A DNA stretch of 64,000 nucleotides, taken from positions 1,698,433-1,762,432 of the forward strand of contig KN832880.1 in NCBI GenBank assembly GCA_000827325.1. The letters run 5' to 3'. This DNA comes from Oidiodendron maius Zn. Taxonomy: Eukaryota > Ascomycota > Leotiomycetes > Myxotrichaceae. Under the pieces are notes generated by a model, which was not told the origin of the DNA, searched no databases, and worked only from the letters and a program-made list of their open reading frames with translations. Shown one piece after another: positions 33,704 through 54,001 of the stretch. The position numbers and the translations under genes were made by a program. How positions within the stretch are numbered: the first letter of the stretch is position 1; each line of letters starts with the position of its first letter.

Positions 33704-34608
33704 ATGAAGCTCCTTTACATCGCTTTCCTTTTGGTGTCGGTCAGTATCTCCGCGTGGGAACTGATTCCCGCGAAAGTGATGCCGCAAAGGCTTGATGCAC
33801 GCGCCTCGTTCTACGGAGGATGGCCGATAGCAGCAAATTCCTGCCCCAGCAATACCACCTCTTGCAATGACGGATCTTGCTGCCCATCAAGCACGAATTG
33901 TTACACAGAAGGGTTAGCAGGAGTAGCAGTATGCTGTCCGGACAGTAAGTAACAAGCTCTTTTGCATAGGTTGTCTAAATGGGTTGGTCGAGGGTCTTTA
34001 AAAAGTATAGCTAACAGTTTATTGTGTCTGCATCTAGCTAATAATTGTGTGGATACCGTAAACACCCTTCCAGTGTGTGCAGATTCTAGTTGGACTCTCT
34101 ATATTGGGAACTATTACTACTTCTGTTGCGCTCCTGGCCAAATTGGAATTCTCCCAGATAAAGGAAGCTCTGTGAGAGCAGGATTGTGTGTGGATAGTAG
34201 CGCTTCTCCTGCTGCATCAGTGCGAGCGACTACGGTAGGAGCTCTGCAAGTATATCTATGTTGTCTTACTTACCCTTCTGCCTTTAGTATGAAGCTGCTG
34301 GCACCACAACTTCCAGTTCGTCTTCTAGCATTTCATCAGCAACAAATACAATACCTTCATCTACTACAAGCCCAACTTCACCATCTACCGGGGGCTCAAC
34401 TTCACCATCTACTATGAGCTCAACCTCGCCATCTAGTGCGGGCTCAACCTCGCCATCTACTACAGGCCCAACCTTATCATCTACTACAAGCCCAACCTCG
34501 ACCCAGAGCTCAACGGCCAAGTCATCAGCAAATAGCTCACCAAACTCTGGGTCTTTATCACTGTCTAGTATGTTCATGGGGCTATCTATTATCATGTTTG
34601 GATTGTGA
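33704..34608 (+). CDS. secreted Cys-rich Ser/Thr-rich protein, probably GPI-anchored
   Basis: Three exons (33704-33944, 34038-34234, 34288-34608) give 252 aa. The N-terminus MKLLYIAFLLVSVSISAW is a signal peptide. The Cys-rich region has CPSNTTSCNDGSCCPSSTNC and AVCCPDS, then a second set (NNCVDTVNTLPVC, YYYFCCAPGQIG). A ~100-residue Ser/Thr/Pro tract follows, with short repeats of the type STSPSTxGS, suited to heavy O-glycosylation. The C-terminus SLSSMFMGLSIIMFGL is a GPI-attachment-like hydrophobic tail after a small-residue stretch. It is likely a cell-wall or surface protein of unknown function. Confidence 0.83.
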
Positions 34609-36131: not shown

Positions 36132-37333
36132 TCAGGGTATTTCGAAGTAGACTAAATCGATATCTGGGGCCTCCAAGAAATCTCCAGGCACGTTATCTTC
36201 TAAGAGATAAGGAAGCTGATGATCCTCAGCCCATTGTCTAATCGCTTCGAAATTCTTGCATTTGTGTTCGTTATCGAAGTCGATAAAGGCCTTGGGAGCT
36301 TTCTTGTCCCACCAGACCTTGAGAGGTTAGAAATTAATATAAACTTTCTTATCATTTTATCTCTATCACAAGAAAGATTTTCTCTTCGATCTATTTTCAA
36401 ATTCGGAGTTGGGATAACAGATTCCGAAATTAGACTTACCTGGCCAAGAAATGCAGTGTCCGGTTGACACATAAGCTGCTGTCTGAGTGTATCAAGACAG
36501 TGTGCTTCAATGATTAGTACGTGGTCAAACAGTCAGCTAAGTTAAGCATACTGAAGTGGTATTTCAAGATATTCTCCTCGTTCATAAATGGGCCTTCTTT
36601 CTTCGCGGCATAATATTCATAGTTGAACCACGAAGCTTTGCGAAGAAGATTCTAGGAGCCAGTATTAGCCTGGAGAATTACGAGAATTCAGTTCATTTGG
36701 GACACACTTACTAGGCAGTGAAGTTGATGAAGGACCTCAACGTTCGCCGGATAACCTCCGCCGTATTTCTTTGCGACTCGTACCTGGCTTGGCTTTGTTA
36801 GGCCTGCCTTTTTTGCTTCTGAAGGCGGAACAATAATGACTTTGTCTGAAAGATCAATCAGTTTTAGAAGCTAATGGGAGATGAGTATGAAGGATTTACA
36901 GTCAGAGCCAATGGATTTCCATGCAGCGTCAACTTCCGGCCCAGCATCTAAACGGAATGGATTCTCCTTTTTGAAAGAGCCATTGAAACGAACAGTATGC
37001 ATACTTGTATCGACTTCATTTAAGATGGGGGCTATACATCAATTTGAGCTCTTCTGTTAGCATGGACATTTCGGATTGAAACTCACAGTAACTTTGAACG
37101 TGCACAGGGCAGATGTCATTGGCTTTGATGGATTTACGACCAATCCAAATACCTAGCCCAAGGAAGAGAAGAGAAGCAGTGGGAATTAAGACTGAAGAGA
37201 GTAATACCAGCTTTCGATGCATATACTCTTTTCTCGGCGTATGAGGGCTGGACAGCAAGGAGTCTTGCGGCCCATCGTCTTCGGATAATTGAGAGCCCTG
37301 ATCACCCTTGTCTTCCAGCGGACTGTACTTCAT
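36132..37333 (-). CDS. UstYa-family (DUF3328) oxidase-like protein
   Basis: Six exons (37333-37087, 37031-36900, 36845-36712, 36651-36552, 36504-36440, 36317-36132) give 287 aa, a normal family length. One TM segment lies at about residues 42-64 (LVLLSSVLIPTASLLFLGLG), so the catalytic part should face the secretory lumen. Both family-defining HxxHC motifs are present: HQLHC at 166-170 and HFTHC at 203-207, the second split by an intron. The C-terminus contains GQVWWD and WAEDHQLPYLL. UstYa proteins (UstYa/Yb, AprY) install oxidative macrocyclic links on fungal RiPP cores. The gene is divergent from a Kex2-repeat precursor 665 bp away, which strongly suggests that precursor is its substrate. 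Confidence 0.92.
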
Positions 37334-37998
37334 GTTATTGATCCAGTATCGTTAGACGTTTCGGTTACTGTTGCTGAATGAGTTGGAACACCTAAGTCAC
37401 TGGTACTCTGAGTACTCAGAGGTAGATAATAAAAGAATGAATCCGAGAAAGTCTGAATTTGTGGGGAAGAAGCATAGTAAGACGGAAAAATGGGCCAGAG
37501 AAAAGAACCTATTCACGATCCCCTCCCTGCAAAATTGCATTGACGATAGGAGGTATTTCTACGGCACAGTCAAGGCATACCTTCCTACCCTAGTCTAGTC
37601 CGGTGCGTGTGATGCCATCGTGTAGGCTCTTCCATTGGTACCACGTACATGTATGGCACATGACATTCCGAGATTCCGTTCTGAGTCTAGTAAAATGCTT
37701 GTTTTACAAGCCTAAAGCTTGTCAGATGTAAGAATCACATTAGGGATGTAGCACTGTGACATAGATCGGCCCACTTACAACCCACTCCTACCATACCTGC
37801 GTAGATAGAGGTCGGAACCTGCGTAGATTTAGCTGTGGCCATCCGGTAATACTCCTCGTCTTTACGTATCTCATCCCATCTTCTAAACTTGTATAAGCAC
37901 GACTGTTTCTCGTCTCCTCTCCTTTCGAACCGAATATTCTTCCCACCGTGCGTCTCTCAATTCAAGCAACCATATTAGCCATTCAAACGATACCCACT
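37334..37998. promoter_or_regulatory. shared divergent promoter of UstYa-like and RiPP precursor genes
   Basis: 665 bp separates the two start codons. A 75-codon frame here (37371-37598) has no motif. A pyrimidine-rich tract (ctcgtctcctctcctttc) lies about 75-95 bp before the precursor ATG, typical of strongly expressed fungal genes. No clear operator is recognised. Confidence 0.45.
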
Positions 37999-38460
37999 AT
38001 GCTCTTCTCACGAGAGTTCATTGCCCTGCTAGCGCTTGCTTCTACTGCGGTGGTTACTGCAGCCCCAACCCCACAACCTCTGGCTTCCGACGAAGTGAAT
38101 CCAACCCCAGCATTGGGAGAGATCTGTAAGTAGTCACAACTGGCCGCATTGTAGTGTTGCTGACAGACCAAACAGTTGAATATGGAAATGAATATAAACG
38201 AGATGTGGATCCCACTCCAGAGCTGGGTGAAATTTGTATATGGTATCGATGAGAAGGATTGAGCACTAGCTGACATCCAAACAGTCGAATATGGGAACGA
38301 ATATAAGCACAAACGTGCAGCAGAGGAGACTACTGTTGACCCTACCCCAGCATTAGGTGAAATTTGTAAGTGGTGCTATCAACACTAATATGGACTAACT
38401 GACAGATTAACTTTTATAGTCGAATATGGGAACGAATACAAGCGTGAAGTATCAAAGTAG
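37999..38460 (+). CDS. Kex2-processed repeat RiPP precursor (dikaritin type)
   Basis: Four exons (37999-38125, 38176-38235, 38285-38365, 38420-38460) give 102 aa. Residues 1-21 form a signal peptide ending VVTA. Three near-identical modules follow, each (N/D)PTPxLGEI then FEYGNEY, at core residues 43-49, 63-69 and 90-96. Each core is followed by a kexin site: KR, KHKR, KR. The tail is EVSK. All three introns split the Phe codon of the core after its first base, so each exon-intron unit is one repeat. This is the layout of UstA, AprA and related precursors: secretion leader, repeated cores, dibasic sites. Cores with Phe and two Tyr suit UstYa-type ether crosslinking. No splice or phase conflict exists. 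Confidence 0.9.
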
Positions 38461-39550
38461 GAGATCCTATGAATGTACTGCGAAAGATCCTACCAGAGAC
38501 TAGTATAGCACTCGTTATGTCTTCCTAAATCAAAGCCGATATTTAAATGGCCCACAAGCAATGCTTCTTAGAAAGCAGATTGCCTCTATGTTTAAAGTGA
38601 CACACCCTTAACTAGACTCAGCCTCGCTATCGATAAGCCCTTGCAGTATTACCAATATTCTGAGCTATGCATTGCCAATACTTAAGAAGCAAGCCTGAGA
38701 TTGAGGCACTACCTATATAGCTACCCTTAGTTAGCATCTCTCCTGTTTTTTTCTTCATTTTCTTCTGATCGCCATCACCACCCGTCTGTTTCCGCAAGTT
38801 CTGCGCCAGCATTCTAAAGCCTCCCCCATCTCGCTGCCTTGATCAGTCCTGGGGCTCACAGCTTGAGGGGTGTCATAAAAAGTTCGGACTGTGTGTCGGC
38901 CTTATTACTGTTGCGGGTACAGATGGTGGCTTGCGTAATGCTCTTGCAGCACGCGCTGGCTTGTTGGGCGTGCTTTGTATGTAAGTTGTTGCTTTTATTG
39001 GGTGACGCGGAATGGGAGATATCCCACTCTGACTAAGCTAAGCTAAGCTAAGCTAAGTACTCAATCTATTAATAGTTACTGTTTAAAATCCTATATAATA
39101 GTATCAACCCTCCTCCCCCTCCCTCCATTTTTAAAGCAGATAGTTGAAATCAAACATACATACTATAGTATAGGGCTTACTGTAATATTAAAGGTAGTAC
39201 AACTCTTTGTATTCTTTATAGGGGTTAGGAGTGTAGTACTATACAGCAACTATAGAACACTAAGCAAGCATAACTCTACCTAGGTTGTATATACAGTAAT
39301 AGGGACATGATCAAGCTAGTAGATGAGTTTGCACGGGAATTTGGCATCAGTACTGGGAGATCCCGGGGACCGCGGTGTACTGTAGTGAGGAGCAATAAGA
39401 ACATCTAAATAATGCCAAGCGATAGCTGTGTATATCTAGCGGGCGAATTCGGGGCTAATATGGTCTGTTCCGCAAAAGAAAACACTTAAACGATTGGATT
39501 TAATGATAATAGAAGTTATTTGAATACAAAAACAACGTTTTCCAATCCCC
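38461..39550. other. intergenic region with (CTAAG)5 microsatellite
   Basis: No gene is supported. A perfect five-copy ctaag tandem lies at 39033-39057, followed by an AT-rich stretch to about 39500. Confidence 0.45.
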
Positions 39551-40302
39551 TCACTTCATAGGCATATAAACACTCATCTCAAGGCCGTTACTATAAGGCA
39601 GTGTCAGGTTCGTGAAACCACTCTCGGGATCTCGAAGGTAAGCCAACAGGTCCTTATACGCTAATGCAGATCCGATTGTATTATCAACGATGACAACAGC
39701 TCCTTTTTTCATCCTAGGCTGTACAAGCTTCAGTGTAGGCAGCGCCATTGGGGCCCAGACTGGTCTATGTCAGTTTCTGGAATGTCCAGGGCGAGTTTGG
39801 CCTTACTATCAAGCAGCAGCAAATCAATTTCTGGCAAGTCTGCCTTCAGTGTCTCCCTCAAATCCCCCTCCCTAAGTTCTACATACTTGGTGACAATCTC
39901 TCCCGCCTCCTTCCAATGTTCTCTTGCCTTCTCCGCCTTACTAGCCTCGTTCTCCGTCGCAATAATAACCCCTTTTCCCCCTGTCGCTTCTAAGTTCCTG
40001 CCAATTGCTAATGCGAGGTACATTGTACTAACGCCAAAACTGGTACCTGCTTCGACAATATTCTTAGCATTAATAGCGAGGCATAACTGGTAGACAAAAT
40101 GGCATTTATCTTGCTCTAAGGCGATGAACTTATCGCGCATGATATCCCTGAAGTTTTGCGTGCGAGAGATCTTAGGATCGAGGCGGAACATGTCACGATC
40201 GAGCATATTCTCCTGTGTGATAGAGAGGGCATGAAGGCGCAAGAGTAGCGAGAGAACATGTGGTGGTGCCAAGATGGGAGATGGGACGGTAGGGGCGGAC
40301 AT
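39551..40302 (-). CDS. SAM-dependent O-methyltransferase (class I, catechol-OMT-like)
   Basis: Two exons (40302-39807, 39759-39551; 47-bp intron) give 234 aa. The SAM-binding motif I is NIVEAGTSFGVSTMYLALAI. Motif II-like IIATENEASKAEKAREHW follows. The acidic metal/SAM loop LLLLDIWAP spans the intron, and VVIVDNTIG corresponds to a post-motif strand. This is the O-methyltransferase family 3 fold, cytosolic. It lies 1.1 kb beyond the precursor on the opposite strand, so it is a candidate tailoring enzyme for the peptide, although many such enzymes act on unrelated phenols. Confidence 0.87.
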
Positions 40303-42589: not shown

Positions 42590-45311
42590 ATGCCTTACAA
42601 GCTGCCTTCCACTCCAGGCGCATCCCATAGTCGTGACAAGGCTTTTCAATGTGTATTTTGCCAGCGCTCATTTGCTCGACGAGAACACCGGAAGCGTCAC
42701 GAGCGTATACGTACATAGCCCACTGATTTACTGATGTCATGTTGATAGCACACCGATAAGCTAACTTGGTGAATTAGACACAAAGGATAAACCTTACCGC
42801 TGTCGGGAATGTCCTCGGTCATTTACGAGAAGGTGAGCATGGCTAGTGTGCTCGAGAGTCATATTCCCTCATTCCGCCACCCAGAAATCGTCGCTAATGT
42901 CTACTACGACGTAACCATGTAGTGACTTACTCGTTCGTCATCAAAAACTTTCTCATGCCGATGCCGATGGCGACAATCAGAATATAGTGTATCCAACTGG
43001 ATCGAGTGGCGCCAAACGAAGAGAGAACACCCGGCGGAGAAGACATGAGCCTCATCAAGAATCGCAGGCGGAAGACTGTGCAGAACAGAATGCGGTCCTT
43101 AGTGGAGCAGAATATGAACTTCCATTTCCAGCATCGCAGCAAAGTTTGTCTCATCTCCCCATGCCACCTCTTTTAACTGGAAATCCTACCGGAGGTCTTT
43201 TATCCACAGTACCCACCATAGTTCCAGATCCTCTGCAAGGCACTCCGCTGGTTTACGATCTCTCCATGGGCAGTGTTCCAACTGGGGTCATAGATATGGA
43301 TATGGATTTCGGCAATTTCCTTCACGATTACCCCTCTGTATTTGGTAGCTTTGGCATGCCGCCATTCTGGTATGCACCAAACTTACACATCGAGCCAGTA
43401 ATTCCACGCTTCTGGCCAGATCAAATCTTAAATGACCCTGGACTATTTCATACTGAGTACAATCAAAGAGATCCTATCGAGTACCTCGACGGACTTAACG
43501 GACATACGGAGAGTTTGAATGCTCTATCTCGGTTTGGATCTCGATTACCATCTCTTCAGCTGGAATCGGAGCTGACCACGGCTAGCCGTAAGTCTACCAA
43601 GTCACATCCGTTATGGAATATAACTGCGGAGGATCGACAACAACTTTTATTGAACATAGCCGGTTTCAATAGCGTTATGCCATCGGGGTTTGTTCTTCCA
43701 TCGCGTCACACATTATCCCGCTATCTGGCTGGCTACGTGAGCGGCTTCCATGGCCATCTTCCATTTCTACATATCTCTACCATTGAGATTAAGAAAGCCT
43801 CACCTGAGATTATCCTTGCTATTGTAGCAGTAGGCAGCCAATATTGTTTTGAGCATACCAAGGGTGTTGAGTTGTTCATGGCTTCGCGGGTCATAGCATC
43901 AGAGCGAATCCGCCGCAATGGAGATCTAAAAAGTGGGGGATTATATCGCAAAGAGGCGGACCAGGTAACTTCTGGACCACGGCCAACGCGCATGGCTACA
44001 CCACCTGCGACTAACGGTAATTCGACGAATACTAATCAAATTGATGCTTCAGCAACCCCATGTGATTCAAATGATAGCTTCAATTCTTTAGAGACCAGGC
44101 AGACGCTGTTGCTACTGATGGCCATGGCAACCTGGAGCGGCAACAAGGAGATGTATGCGGAAGCCTTAGCTATTCAGAGCATTTTGGCATCGATGATTCG
44201 AGAGCATGGGCTCTTGAACTCAGAAAACACAGCGACAAGCGCAACTTGGGAAGACTGGATCAGACTTGAGAGCATAAAGAGAACAAACTTTATGATATAT
44301 TGTGTTTCCAACTTCCACAGTATCATTTGCAACACGGCACCCGCAATCCTCAACGCGGAGCTCAGTATGGATCTTCCTTGTTCAGAAGCGGAATGGAAAT
44401 TGCCCACAGCGGACACGTGGGAAGATTTCCATCGCCTCTCAGGACCCAATCCAGGATTTCAAAAATCGCTCTTGTATCTATTCACGAATAAAGGGAATAT
44501 GTCCTCTTTTAAATGCTCTTCTCTAGGTGGCTATATCCTTATTCACGCCTTGATCCAGCAGATCTTCCTCGTTCGACAGACCAGCATATACCGCCCTGGC
44601 TCAGATGGAAACCTATCCCCCCAAGAAGTATCAGTTCTGGAGCAGGCTCTCACAAACTGGACGCGCATGTGGGAAGGAAACCCCGAATCATCACTAGACC
44701 CTAAAAGTCCGCACGGGCCTGTGGCTTTCACCTCTTCAGCCCTACTAAGGATCGCCTATATCCGGCTCCATGTGGATATCGGACCATGGCGCGCTCTGGA
44801 GACGCAGGATCCTTTAAGAATCGCAAAAGCAATGCTTTACAGTCCAGCCGTTCAACGAAGCAGTAAACTCACCCAGGCTGCACTGCATTCAGCACATGCG
44901 TTAAGCATCCCTATTAGACTCGGGATAAATCTCATCTCACGTAACCAAATTCTCACATGGTCCCTTCAGCACTCTGTGTGTTCCCTTGAGTATGCCTTTT
45001 TGCTCAGCAAGTGGCTCGACGCTGTGACCACGCAATTGTCCAACGATCAGGCGCTTAATAAGGATGAGCAATTATTGCTAGATTTCGTGACCAGCATATT
45101 GATTGAATCGGATTCTGACCGCCCGTCAATTATTAATGTCGCTGATGGCACCGAAGAAGGTAGGCGTAGCTCCTCCTGTACGACCTTGAGTGCTAGGGTG
45201 GTAAAGGTTTGGGCAAGAATGTTTTCCGGAGACGGGATTTGGGGTGTGGTTAATATGATTGGAAGAGTGATGTGTGCTTACGGGGATATGCTCGAGGGGG
45301 GTACGTCCTAA
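42590..45311 (+). CDS. C2H2 zinc-finger transcription factor with fungal_trans domain
   Basis: Three exons (42590-42710, 42778-42832, 42923-45311) give 854 aa. Two adjacent C2H2 fingers lie near the N-terminus: CVFCQRSFARREHRKRHERIH (first) and CRECPRSFTRRSDLLVRHQKLSH (second, spanning intron 2). A basic stretch follows (KRRENTRRRRHE). From about residue 250 the protein shows the fungal-specific regulatory domain (FLHISTIEIKKASPEIILAI, then LLLMAMATWSGNKEMYAEAL). This double-C2H2 plus PF04082 class often regulates metabolic clusters. It could control the RiPP block 4 kb away, but the inverted repeats between them suggest it may be a separate unit. Confidence 0.88.
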
Positions 45312-50653: not shown

Positions 50654-53600
50654 TTAGCACTTAGGCGGGAGGCCTGGGTCGGAGGTCGCGGTTTTCGATA
50701 GGGCAATCTCGGCATCCCGCCGTTTCACAAGACCAGGAATGACTTGTCCATTATTGCCATCCACCCACTTCACGAGCTCTGCAGGGAGGACCACCGTGGG
50801 ATTCTCGCCGTTATTAAGTCGTTTGACGAGGGTAGATGACTGGACACCGCCGCAGCCCACATTAAAGGCCCAACTAACTAGCGCGCCGTACTCGTTCATG
50901 TTAAGCGTCACCTTATCATTCATCATTTCGGTTATACACTTCTCAGCAACCTAGAGCGAATGAGATTTGGCATTAGCGTACTGCGGGAAAGTCTCTAAGA
51001 GTATAAAAGGGCCACTACTCACAGCCATGTCCGAGGCGAGGAGTTTCTTCCCATCAGCCTCAGATAGAGGGATAGAGTATCCGAGCCCGGGGCATTTGGC
51101 GTTCTGGCAGAGATGGCCGTAGCCGATTTCAGAGTTGCTGGTAGCATCGGTATCTATTTAAGTGAGCTTCCTGGGACGTGACAAGTCTATGCCTAGGGTT
51201 ATTTACAGATGTTGGCCCTGAAGCTCTCGAACCCAGAGATCAGATTAACTGTGGCCTGATTGCACTGAGGCGGACCGCAATTGTCTTTCGAAGGGGTAGT
51301 GGCGTGGGCTGTGCAACACTGCGCCGGAGGTAAGCTTTATTGTGCAAGGGTGTCAGGAAGGGAATGGTACTCACTTGGACATTTTCGGGGTCGGTTGGAC
51401 AGTACCCCGGAGTCGCTACCTTTCCGGCACTGGCGCATGCACTCTTGTCAAGACAGGTGCCAGCCTGGCCATTGACTGAGCACGCATTTCCATACCCGCC
51501 AATATTGTAGATGATCGGGGCCATTCTGGTCGAGCCGGTGCAACACTGTAAAATATCCATCAGCATGCCTTGGATAATGAGTAACAAGAAGTAGTAATAT
51601 ATACTTGAACATTCTCAGGGTCCTTGGGACAGAATCCTGGGGTTGCGGTATCTCCATTGTTCTTACACTCGGTCACATCGACACATATTCCGGACTTCCC
51701 CTGGACGGTACATTTATTCGGCTGTGGGCCTGCGGGGGGACTTGATGACGCCGGCTCCGGCTGTGATTTAGACGGAGTTGGTGACGATGACGTGGGCTTC
51801 GGCTGTGACTTAGAAAGGGTCGTTGATGCTGACTTCGGCGTGCAGCACTATAATATACCGTTCATCAGGCACTGCTTAGACAAAAGAACGGGGCTGCGAT
51901 ACGCACCTCGACATTATTAGGATCATTAGGGCAGTAACCTGGGGTCGCGACCTTTCCACCACTCTCACACGTATTCACATCAATACATGTTCCGGGCGTC
52001 CCTTTAACAGTGCATGTATTTGGATTCGTTAATGCGGATTTCGGTGTGCAGCACTATAATATTTTTTTATTTGGTACGGCTTGGGATTATTGCAGAAGGT
52101 GGGAATACGTACCTCGACATTATTAGGGTCATTAGGGCAGTAGCCTGGCGTTGCAACCTTCCCACTACCCTCGCACGTACTCACATCGATACATGTTCCG
52201 GCCACCCCATTAATAGTGCATGTATGTGGCTGTGAACTAGGTGGAGGGTTTGACGAAGATTTTGGTGTGCAGCACTATAATATATCTATTAGGTATGGCT
52301 TGGGCTGTTGCAAAACGCATACATACCTCAACATTGTTAGGATCGTTAGGGCAGTAGCCTGGGGTCGCAACCTTTCCATCACTCTCGCACGTATTCACAT
52401 CAATACACGTTCCTGCCACCCCATTAATAGTGCATGTATTCGGCGTGCTAGGAGGGCTTCCTGGCGGCAGTGTCGGACCTGGCAGCGTGGGATGCGTAGA
52501 AGATGCTGGCCCGGAACCGCCTCCTGTCCCCGGAAGATCGAAAGGCTTACAAACCGTAGCCATGGGGTAGTTGACCGAAGCTATCGTAAACTTGGCTTGC
52601 TTCCCCCCCCCGACAAAGCCTGCGTCGAGGTCCACCTCGACGCCATAGGACGGAATGACTTTGACTGCCGCATCCTTGCCGTCTCCAGGTTTACAAGCGC
52701 CGTTGGTACTCGCCATGAGGAGGTCCCCCTCTATTTGGAAATAGGGTGCCTTCAGCAAGATCCCAACTTCAACGCCCTTGCCAAGGACTGTCGCCTGGAG
52801 CTGAGCCGTTATACCTACAAATATTTGGAACTTGACAGCCTCTTTTGCTTGGACCTGGAGCGGGCCCCATTCGACATGAGGGACCCAGCCGGAGAAGTGA
52901 TTGTTGGAAAAATCACCCAAGTCAGCCTGAAGGATCGCACTGTCCGAGATGGTAGCGGTTGCGGTGATCGAAGCACTCAGACTGTCTTTTGCTGATAGAG
53001 ACCAGCCCAACTCACCGATGAGTTGTGGCCCGACCGAAAATATGTCGCCCAGAATGGAAAGACCTCCAGGAAGTGGTATGTCGATAAGTGGGAGTGTTTC
53101 GTCGGACTTGTTAGTCCCCCCGCTCGGCCCTTCTGACAGGCTTAGAGAAAAGCCGGCTTTAAATTCAACGTCGTGAGGTGTTACTGAAAAGTCCGCTCCA
53201 TCGGGAATCCCCAACCAATTTTGCCTGAGGGTGAACACAAAGTCCAAGGTCCCAGCAGAACTGCATGGACTGCACCCGAGCGAAACGGGTCCGACGCTGG
53301 TTGAGAATGTGTAATCGGCACCAATGCCGATCGATGCGGATTTCGAGAGGTCACGTCGCGTAGCGGCTTTCGATGGAGTGTCCAAGTCGTTGACACTACC
53401 TACACGCAGCTCATACGAATGTGCCAGTTCCTGCCACGTCCCAAGAGTAGCATCGAGGGTCACAATCCTCGCCGGGTCATTTGAGCGAAGGGAGGTGATG
53501 TTGTAGGGCACACGGAATTCGTTACCGTCGCAATCCCCTTTACTGGGAATGGCGAGAAACGTGCGGTTGTGGGCGCCGTTAACCCAACCCCAGGCTGCCT

Positions 53601-54001
53601 TCGCATACTGAAAAGTCTGCTCGTCTTTGAAGGTAAACGTCAAGGCTGTAGGTTCGCAATTGATAGACTCCAACGTGGAGCTAAACCGTTCCAGCGATAA
53701 GAGATTCTCGTTGTCTGCGGGCTTCAGCACAGTCAGGTTGGCCAAAACCTCATTGCTTCCACCTGGTCCAATTATGAGTAAAACCATTTGGCATATTAAC
53801 AACAAGGCGCGAATACTCACCTCCCGGCCCCCATAGCCACGTTTCGCTAGAGACTAGATTATAGATAGTCGAGTCTCGTTTGTGTCGCACGGACGGGCGT
53901 ACATCCCAAGGCTTGAGTTCATCGAGCACGAGAGTGGCATAGCTACACACAACAAAAAGAGAGACAGAAAGGAACGAGAATAATCGGAACTTGGTATCCA
54001 T
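50654..54001 (-). CDS. secreted modular GH24 lysozyme with five Cys-rich repeats
   Basis: Nine exons (54001-53821, 53762-52327, 52274-52113, 52053-51907, 51847-51605, 51545-51375, 51318-51207, 51153-51023, 50950-50654) give 959 aa, all phases consistent. A signal peptide (MDTKFRLFSFLSVSLFVVCS) leads into a ~430-residue beta-rich region I cannot name. From about residue 500 come five modules of the pattern C(T/S)(I/V)xG...GTCIDVxxC...GKVATPGYCPNDPNNVECC, joined by Ser/Pro-rich linkers. The C-terminal ~175 residues are a T4-type GH24 muramidase: SGFESFR (likely catalytic Glu 811), YTDATSNSEIGYGHLC, ALVSWAFNVGCGG. It would cleave peptidoglycan outside the cell. In every module the intron falls just before the CC pair. 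Confidence 0.9.

Follow-up and report, generated by a model that had tools for sequence, protein, structure and literature searches.

What does an ericoid mycorrhizal fungus make from a short, secreted, repetitive protein encoded head to head with a UstYa-type oxidase? The question is raised by positions 36132-40302 of the window, by which we mean the whole 64-kb stretch of DNA analyzed here, the final 64 kb of contig 11 (1,762,432 bases) in the 45.9-Mb genome of the Leotiomycete Oidiodendron maius Zn; all coordinates are positions in this window. We conclude, with a probability of about 0.72, that the locus is a small UstYa-type cluster for a ribosomally synthesized and post-translationally modified peptide (RiPP), in which the small secreted protein (SSP) OmSSP4 is the precursor of a peptide that would be cut by Kex2, cross-linked by UstYa, and secreted only in mycorrhizal roots. 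Directly shown are the gene models, the motifs, the repeats, and, in published work, a symbiosis-specific transcript. What is new is that the RiPP-precursor candidate is the published mycorrhiza-specific protein OmSSP4. The kind of cluster is already known; distinctive here are the symbiosis-only expression, the orphan core, and the build of one intron per core.

Layout of the locus

The locus runs from the stop codon of the UstYa gene (36132) to the start codon of a methyltransferase gene (40302), which is exactly the span given in an earlier note on this DNA. Its central elements are the following.

36132-37333, minus strand: UstYa/DUF3328 oxidase gene OIDMADRAFT_128513, 287 aa; exons 37333-37087, 37031-36900, 36845-36712, 36651-36552, 36504-36440, and 36317-36132
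36715-36729, minus strand: first HxxHC motif of UstYa, HQLHC, residue 166 (placed on exon coordinates)
36497-36558, minus strand: second HxxHC motif of UstYa, HFTHC, residue 203, interrupted by intron 4 (placed on exon coordinates)
37334-37998, no strand: 665-bp divergent stretch from the UstYa start to the precursor start (from the coordinates); likely a shared promoter region
37999-38460, plus strand: precursor gene OIDMADRAFT_20160 (OmSSP4), 102 aa; exons 37999-38125, 38176-38235, 38285-38365, and 38420-38460
37999-38064, plus strand: precursor signal peptide of some 20-22 residues, judged by eye and, for OmSSP4 in PMC5938622, by three agreeing predictors
38125-38201, plus strand: core 1, FEYGNEY followed by KR (38196-38201); first codon interrupted by intron 38126-38175
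38235-38316, plus strand: core 2, FEYGNEY followed by KHKR (38305-38316); first codon interrupted by intron 38236-38284
38365-38445, plus strand: core 3, FEYGNEY followed by KR (38440-38445); first codon interrupted by intron 38366-38419

Gene models and Pfam agree on a UstYa with both HxxHC motifs lying head to head with a 102-residue secreted precursor, as the earlier note had it, with 665 bp between the two start codons. The four-exon precursor model agrees with the deposited protein: in a homologue search it matched "hypothetical protein OIDMADRAFT_20160 [Oidiodendron maius Zn]" along all 102 aa with 100% identity.

The precursor is the published protein OmSSP4

Casarrubia et al. (2018) list OmSSP4 in their Table 1 as protein 20160, with 102 aa, 11.3 kDa, a grand average of hydropathy (GRAVY) of -0.48, 0 Cys, two internal repeats, and no Pfam domain (PMC5938622). 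Our precursor model has a mass of 11,356 Da, a GRAVY of -0.478, 0 Cys, and no domain in a Pfam scan, and the protein ID in Table 1 is the number in the NCBI locus tag OIDMADRAFT_20160. Because identifier (20160), length (102 aa), mass (11.36 kDa), GRAVY (-0.48), and cysteine count (0) all agree, the precursor is OmSSP4.

Mean expression of OmSSP4 was 0 in free-living mycelium and 105 in Vaccinium myrtillus mycorrhiza (p 7.56E-10), labeled "mycorrhiza specific", and the up-regulation was confirmed by reverse transcription quantitative PCR (RT-qPCR) (PMC5938622). The transcript expected of the precursor is therefore on record, with reads mapped to transcript models. The same study counted one orthologue in 60 genomes, OmSSP4 itself. 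The available text of that publication, the one in which the name OmSSP4 occurs in the literature searched, treats OmSSP4 as an intact SSP and candidate effector and contains no RiPP reading; DUF3328 is not mentioned in its main text. We found no RiPP reading of OmSSP4 in the literature searched; Table S2 of Umemura 2020, a survey of Kex2-processed repeat proteins (KEPs) in 1,461 strains whose main text names Oidiodendron once, for a di-histidine-repeat type (PMC7329392), may already list the gene as a KEP. Text searches for "EYGNEY" and "FEYGN" returned no match, and among the matches listed for mycorrhizal or ericoid fungi and RiPPs no title makes such a link. The cluster that had been called undescribed thus has a published precursor gene and, in the literature searched, no published RiPP reading, and no known product with the FEYGNEY core was found there.

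Two further observations concern the same set of proteins. OmSSP5 (protein 23797), also mycorrhiza specific, has 108 aa, 0 Cys, a GRAVY of -0.24, and two internal repeats (PMC5938622). It may be another Kex2-repeat precursor; it fits none of the five precursors that we modeled from the 11 seen at UstYa loci in the genome. Six mycorrhiza-induced SSPs carry a KR-rich motif that was read as an aid to plant nuclear entry (PMC5938622), and their KR pairs could be Kex2 sites.

Three repeats, each begun at an intron

The precursor has a hydrophobic N terminus (by eye) followed by three repeats that share PTP(A/E)LGEIFEYGNEYK and are terminated by KR, KHKR, and KR. Cutting at KR gives fragments of 31, 22, and 25 aa (dibasic end included), the first of these sizes hinging on the assumed end of the signal peptide, and then a short EVSK tail. 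Each fragment closes with an identical 12-aa block and a dibasic site. The earlier description of FEYGNEY cores bounded by KR or KHKR stands as to the three copies and the C-side sites; the N side carries no KR. Because KR occurs only on the C side and the invariant block is LGEIFEYGNEYK, the limits of FEYGNEY are a choice and not a boundary in the sequence. KEPs are defined by a signal peptide and at least three tandem repeats of at least 8 aa between KR, KK, RK, or RR sites (PMC7329392). OmSSP4 has both, the signal peptide from its hydrophobic start and the published predictors (PMC5938622) and the repeats from the fragments read above.

Each of the three introns (50, 49, and 54 nt) has GT-AG ends and a single branch-like motif, CTGAC or CTAAC, and each lies in phase 1 within the codon for the Phe that opens a core. 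With internal exons of 60 and 81 nt, this places the cores at exon starts and makes the internal exons symmetric. Retention of intron 1 stops the frame after LGEICK, ahead of every core. Given this stop and the symmetric exons, splicing could control how many cores are made. A search of the whole genome with the core DNA pattern at up to one mismatch found only three copies, all in the precursor; together with the uniform intron position, this argues that the repeat structure is not a chance product. At up to three mismatches there were nine forward and three reverse matches, against seven and four for a reversed control, so these weaker matches are at noise level. One two-mismatch match, on contig C7, was discarded, as it sits in a long, unrelated-looking open frame. 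No further precursor relative was found in the genome below an E value of 0.4, the next place having 0.466. Similarity between introns 1 and 2 was equaled or beaten by three of 500 shuffles, compared with 92 for introns 1 and 3 and 35 for introns 2 and 3; since only the first pair stands out, duplication of a whole exon-intron unit is only partly supported.

A homologue search with the precursor returned two proteins among 16 candidates, OmSSP4 itself and P0002 (68 aa, 12 contigs), which resembles the unspliced exons 2 and 3 of a close relative. In a comparison with the window in one and the same frame, which for exon 2 is not the coding one, the amino acid is retained at 43 of 44 codons from exons and at 19 of 24 from introns or junctions.

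These features bear on two other views of the protein. OmSSP4 could act whole, as an intact effector whose KR pairs have a different role, for example in host-cell entry. It was published among candidate effectors, and a KR-rich motif that may support nuclear entry is reported for six mycorrhiza-induced SSPs, which may or may not include OmSSP4 (PMC5938622). We nevertheless consider an intact effector improbable, since the dibasic sites fall exactly at the ends of three near-identical repeats, the protein has neither cysteine nor a Pfam domain, and a UstYa gene adjoins it. A mating pheromone precursor would also be secreted, repeated, and furnished with Kex2 sites, as OmSSP4 is. Leotiomycete alpha pheromone repeats contain two conserved Cys (PMC6339444), however, and the 0 Cys of OmSSP4 led us to reject this reading, to which we leave next to no weight. 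Moreover, with three exceptions, DUF3328 genes are absent near KEPs annotated as mating factor or pheromone (PMC7329392), and the expression of OmSSP4 is symbiosis specific (PMC5938622).

The UstYa enzyme and its relatives

The UstYa gene has six exons, its 287-aa product is identical to OIDMADRAFT_128513, and it scores 197.9 bits against the Pfam family UstYa (PF11807; cut-off 25), with one N-terminal transmembrane stretch by eye. A search returned 457 proteins, and 119 of the 120 listed, window gene included, carry two HxxHC motifs. We built a tree of 62 rows, comprising 59 of these 120 proteins and three same-genome paralogues, two of them pieced together from tblastn matches. The window UstYa falls in a 28-row clade with support 100/99, in which the three genera looked up and O. 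maius are Leotiomycetes; we take the remaining named members to be Leotiomycetes as well. Some rows labeled "env" in the tree bear species names in the homologue search, and orthologues of the enzyme occur in Hyphodiscus, Phlyctema, Lachnellula, and Sclerotinia. The paralogue on contig C24, which has the highest identity to the window UstYa, was placed in a different clade. Judged from sequence comparison, an old Leotiomycete enzyme lineage seems to be paired here with an orphan precursor, since the named clade members are Leotiomycetes and the precursor is nearly without relatives.

A single-sequence search against solved structures returned 0 PDB sequences at E values up to 1, and NCBIfam gave 0 families for UstYa and 0 for the methyltransferase. 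The full locus tag of the Sclerotinia UstYa orthologue had no text match in the literature, a shorter stem of it matched one publication, and the available text of the S. sclerotiorum cluster publication does not name this orthologue. UniRef calls many of the homologues "Tat pathway signal sequence", a misleading automatic name for a fungal oxidase family.

In a third view of the precursor, OmSSP4 yields linear Kex2-repeat peptides, unmodified secreted signals like alpha-factor, and UstYa has another substrate. A DUF3328 gene lies near only 22% of fungal KEPs (PMC7329392), so linear KEPs are common, and no product is known at this locus. Against this stand the head-to-head arrangement with UstYa 665 bp from the precursor and a core with three aromatic residues, one Phe and two Tyr; Tyr occurs in 65.6% of repeats with DUF3328 compared with 38.2% without (Umemura, PMC7329392). 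By a simple estimate (2 x 48 UstYa groups over the 16,703 genes of O. maius; PMC5938622), the chance of a neighboring UstYa is about 0.6%. We regard the linear peptide as unlikely, although it is the strongest of the three alternatives, and a UstYa-linked Kex2-repeat precursor as well supported.

Other UstYa loci in the genome

Exon-level UstYa matches in the genome number 70, which merge into 36 groups when gaps of 15 kb are allowed and into 48 when the limit is 1 kb. Outside the OmSSP4 locus, we inspected the flanking DNA at 25 of the 35 groups (at one of them in part) and saw Kex2-delimited repeats at 11 (L018, L024, L027, L030, L031, L034, L036, L037, L038, L040, and L044), with L041 ambiguous. 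The pairing of UstYa with Kex2 repeats is thus common in this genome, which has about a dozen or more clusters of this type; the OmSSP4 locus does not stand alone. The repeats elsewhere are very different, for example VYNVATYGI in five copies (L031), YGLNF in 11 (L030), and EWDGGGDFAPD in four (L027). All but one of the 11 precursors keep every repeat copy in one frame (L024 uses two), which makes the one-intron-per-core build of OmSSP4 unusual here.

The core closest to FEYGNEY by eye, VFEYGTYKK, belongs to the UstYa-linked precursor at L038 (C5:1650200-1655199, minus strand, about 500-1130), which has two VFEYGTYK and five IFGYVYKK repeats. It differs from OmSSP4 in this mixture and in its single frame without introns, and its UstYa is less like the window enzyme than are those of two other loci. 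Seven relatives (P0123-P0129) were found among 8,000 candidates scored, all with IFGY repeats and five with exact FEYGTY. Separately, an array of repeats of about 100 nt lies near the UstYa gene of L041 (C18:781300-786299, about 1-850); by eye, its minus strand gives ITYxLFHHP-like reads and its plus strand has GTAAGT at regular spacing.

Comparison with known pathways

Is the locus, then, a dikaritin-type cluster, as had been claimed? By the enzyme-based definition, which takes UstY as the class-defining enzyme (PMC12048977), it is one, since a UstYa with two HxxHC motifs lies beside a repeat precursor. The five-gene definition of Ding et al. (via PMC12048977) names a precursor, a tyrosinase, several DUF3328 proteins, a methyltransferase, and a transporter or peptidase. 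The window holds one UstYa, and no tyrosinase was found among the 30 window open reading frames (ORFs) scanned with Pfam, a set that leaves out short ORFs. Functional clusters lacking some of the five genes exist (PMC12048977). The claim therefore stands as to a UstYa-linked Kex2-repeat precursor and falls short of the five-gene definition, for which reason "asperipin/epichloecyclin-like" is a better description than "ustiloxin-like". Ustiloxins and phomopsins share with OmSSP4 a Kex2-repeat precursor and a UstYa-type oxidase; they have two and five DUF3328 proteins, respectively, plus a tyrosinase (PMC7329392). On the single UstYa and the lack of a tyrosinase among the scanned ORFs, we reject an ustiloxin-type cluster.

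The asperipin-2a pathway (apr cluster, Aspergillus flavus) likewise has one DUF3328 protein, proposed for macrocyclization (PMC7329392), and a core that is rich in aromatic residues, starting with Phe and ending with Tyr. Its core is another one, and the OmSSP4 locus has no directly adjacent transporter or reductase. The epichloecyclins of Epichloe grass endophytes come from the four-gene gigA cluster, with a secreted repeat precursor bearing Kex2 sites, one DUF3328 gene, a kexin, and a transcript made in planta but reported to be missing from cultures (PMC9233826, PMC7317419); they, too, belong to a mutualist association. OmSSP4 shows such in-planta-specific precursor expression in the published 0 versus 105 and RT-qPCR (PMC5938622), and it agrees with the epichloecyclin pattern both in its expression and in its DUF3328 gene. 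Apparent differences are the kexin gene kexB of the gigA cluster, with no kexin among the scanned ORFs beside OmSSP4, and another fungal class, as O. maius is a Leotiomycete, and host. The one intron per core of OmSSP4 may be another difference.

Proposed pathway and its weight

The gene order and precursor anatomy suggest a short pathway, of which we infer cleavage, cross-links, product secretion, and role. OmSSP4 would enter the secretory pathway by its signal peptide, and a Kex2-type protease would cleave after KR, KHKR, and KR, giving three fragments with LGEIFEYGNEY(K) in common. The [N/D]P-TP stretch ahead of the invariant block LGEIFEYGNEYK may then be lost to peptidases; this stretch could be a dipeptidyl-peptidase trimming signal, an idea that draws on general knowledge of X-Pro peptidases. 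The membrane-anchored UstYa would then oxidatively cross-link the aromatic side chains Phe1, Tyr3, and Tyr7 of FEYGNEY, most likely in one or two Tyr-based links of -2H each, much as has been suggested for AprY in the asperipin-2a pathway. Calculated MH+ values are 921.36 for FEYGNEY (919.35 at -2H, 917.33 at -4H) and 1333.59 for LGEIFEYGNEY (1331.58 at -2H, 1329.56 at -4H), with methylation adding 14.02. Once made, the peptide would be secreted only in mycorrhizal roots and might act as a signal or defense compound in the root apoplast.

Several points weigh against this pathway. No product is known, and none with a FEYGNEY core was found in the literature searched. At 0.9, the terminal branch of the window UstYa is the longest in the clade, which could reflect relaxed constraint, and co-expression of this UstYa in symbiosis is unproven. 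The precursor exon junctions are unproven by reads, since the publication mapped reads to transcript models (PMC5938622). No tyrosinase, kexin, or cytochrome P450 was found among the scanned ORFs. The UstYa-type RiPP cluster remains our preferred reading. More tentatively, and at somewhat less than even odds, we propose that OmSSP4 is the precursor of a RiPP made specifically in mycorrhiza, the first such case as judged from the literature searched, cross-linked by UstYa and switched on only inside ericaceous roots.

The methyltransferase and the rest of the window

Two further genes could belong to the cluster.

39551-40302, minus strand: small S-adenosylmethionine (SAM) methyltransferase, 234 aa; exons 40302-39807 and 39759-39551; pathway membership uncertain
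42590-45311, plus strand: transcription factor, Fungal_trans with a zinc-finger-like start (by eye); whole span; putative regulator, possibly of the cluster

The methyltransferase is intact, with two exons, a 47-nt intron, and Pfam matches to Methyltransf_24/Methyltransf_3. As an addition to the RiPP cluster, it might methylate the cross-linked peptide. It is the next gene, 1.1 kb from the precursor, and methyltransferases are present in ustiloxin, phomopsin, and lichen clusters (PMC12048977). Its orientation is convergent with the precursor, however, small SAM methyltransferases are widespread, and none of its three paralogues in this genome (65, 60, and 53% for the best exons) coincides with a UstYa match. 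Of the O-methyltransferase said to follow the precursor, the gene is confirmed and the link to the pathway is weak; we consider its membership possible but doubtful.

Farther out, at distances of about 6-10 kb, the UstYa gene has an epimerase-fold gene and a major facilitator superfamily (MFS) gene, the latter at about 9 kb. A PF00144 (beta-lactamase family) gene lies at window positions 3.0-4.0 kb (about 32 kb off), and transporters lie at 6.6-7.9, 11.7-13.9, and 26.1-27.6 kb. Positions 33704-34608 encode a secreted protein rich in Cys, which has a hydrophobic tail and a Thr/Ser-rich tract of 24-nt repeats and looks glycosylphosphatidylinositol-mucin-like by eye; two pieces of it scanned against Pfam gave no match. 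A gene with DUF7029 and DUF7223 lies at 52240-53853, its 3' end overlapped by a 214-nt tandem repeat of 2.6 copies at 51899-52440.

Implications for ericoid mycorrhiza

Mycorrhizal effectors have mostly been sought as folded small proteins. The RiPP hypothesis is directly testable, because the precursor is a published SSP with existing RNA-seq data (GSE63947) and known genetics, and a direct test is possible in O. maius itself, where deletion mutants of another SSP, OmSSP1, have already been made (PMC5938622). If the hypothesis is true, a mycorrhizal fungus would have at least one "small secreted protein" that is in truth a cyclic natural product, and some entries in mycorrhizal effector lists may likewise be natural products of peptide type, to be tested by mass and not by protein assay. 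Ericoid mycorrhiza would then gain a counterpart of the epichloecyclins and, with it, a candidate chemical signal or defense.

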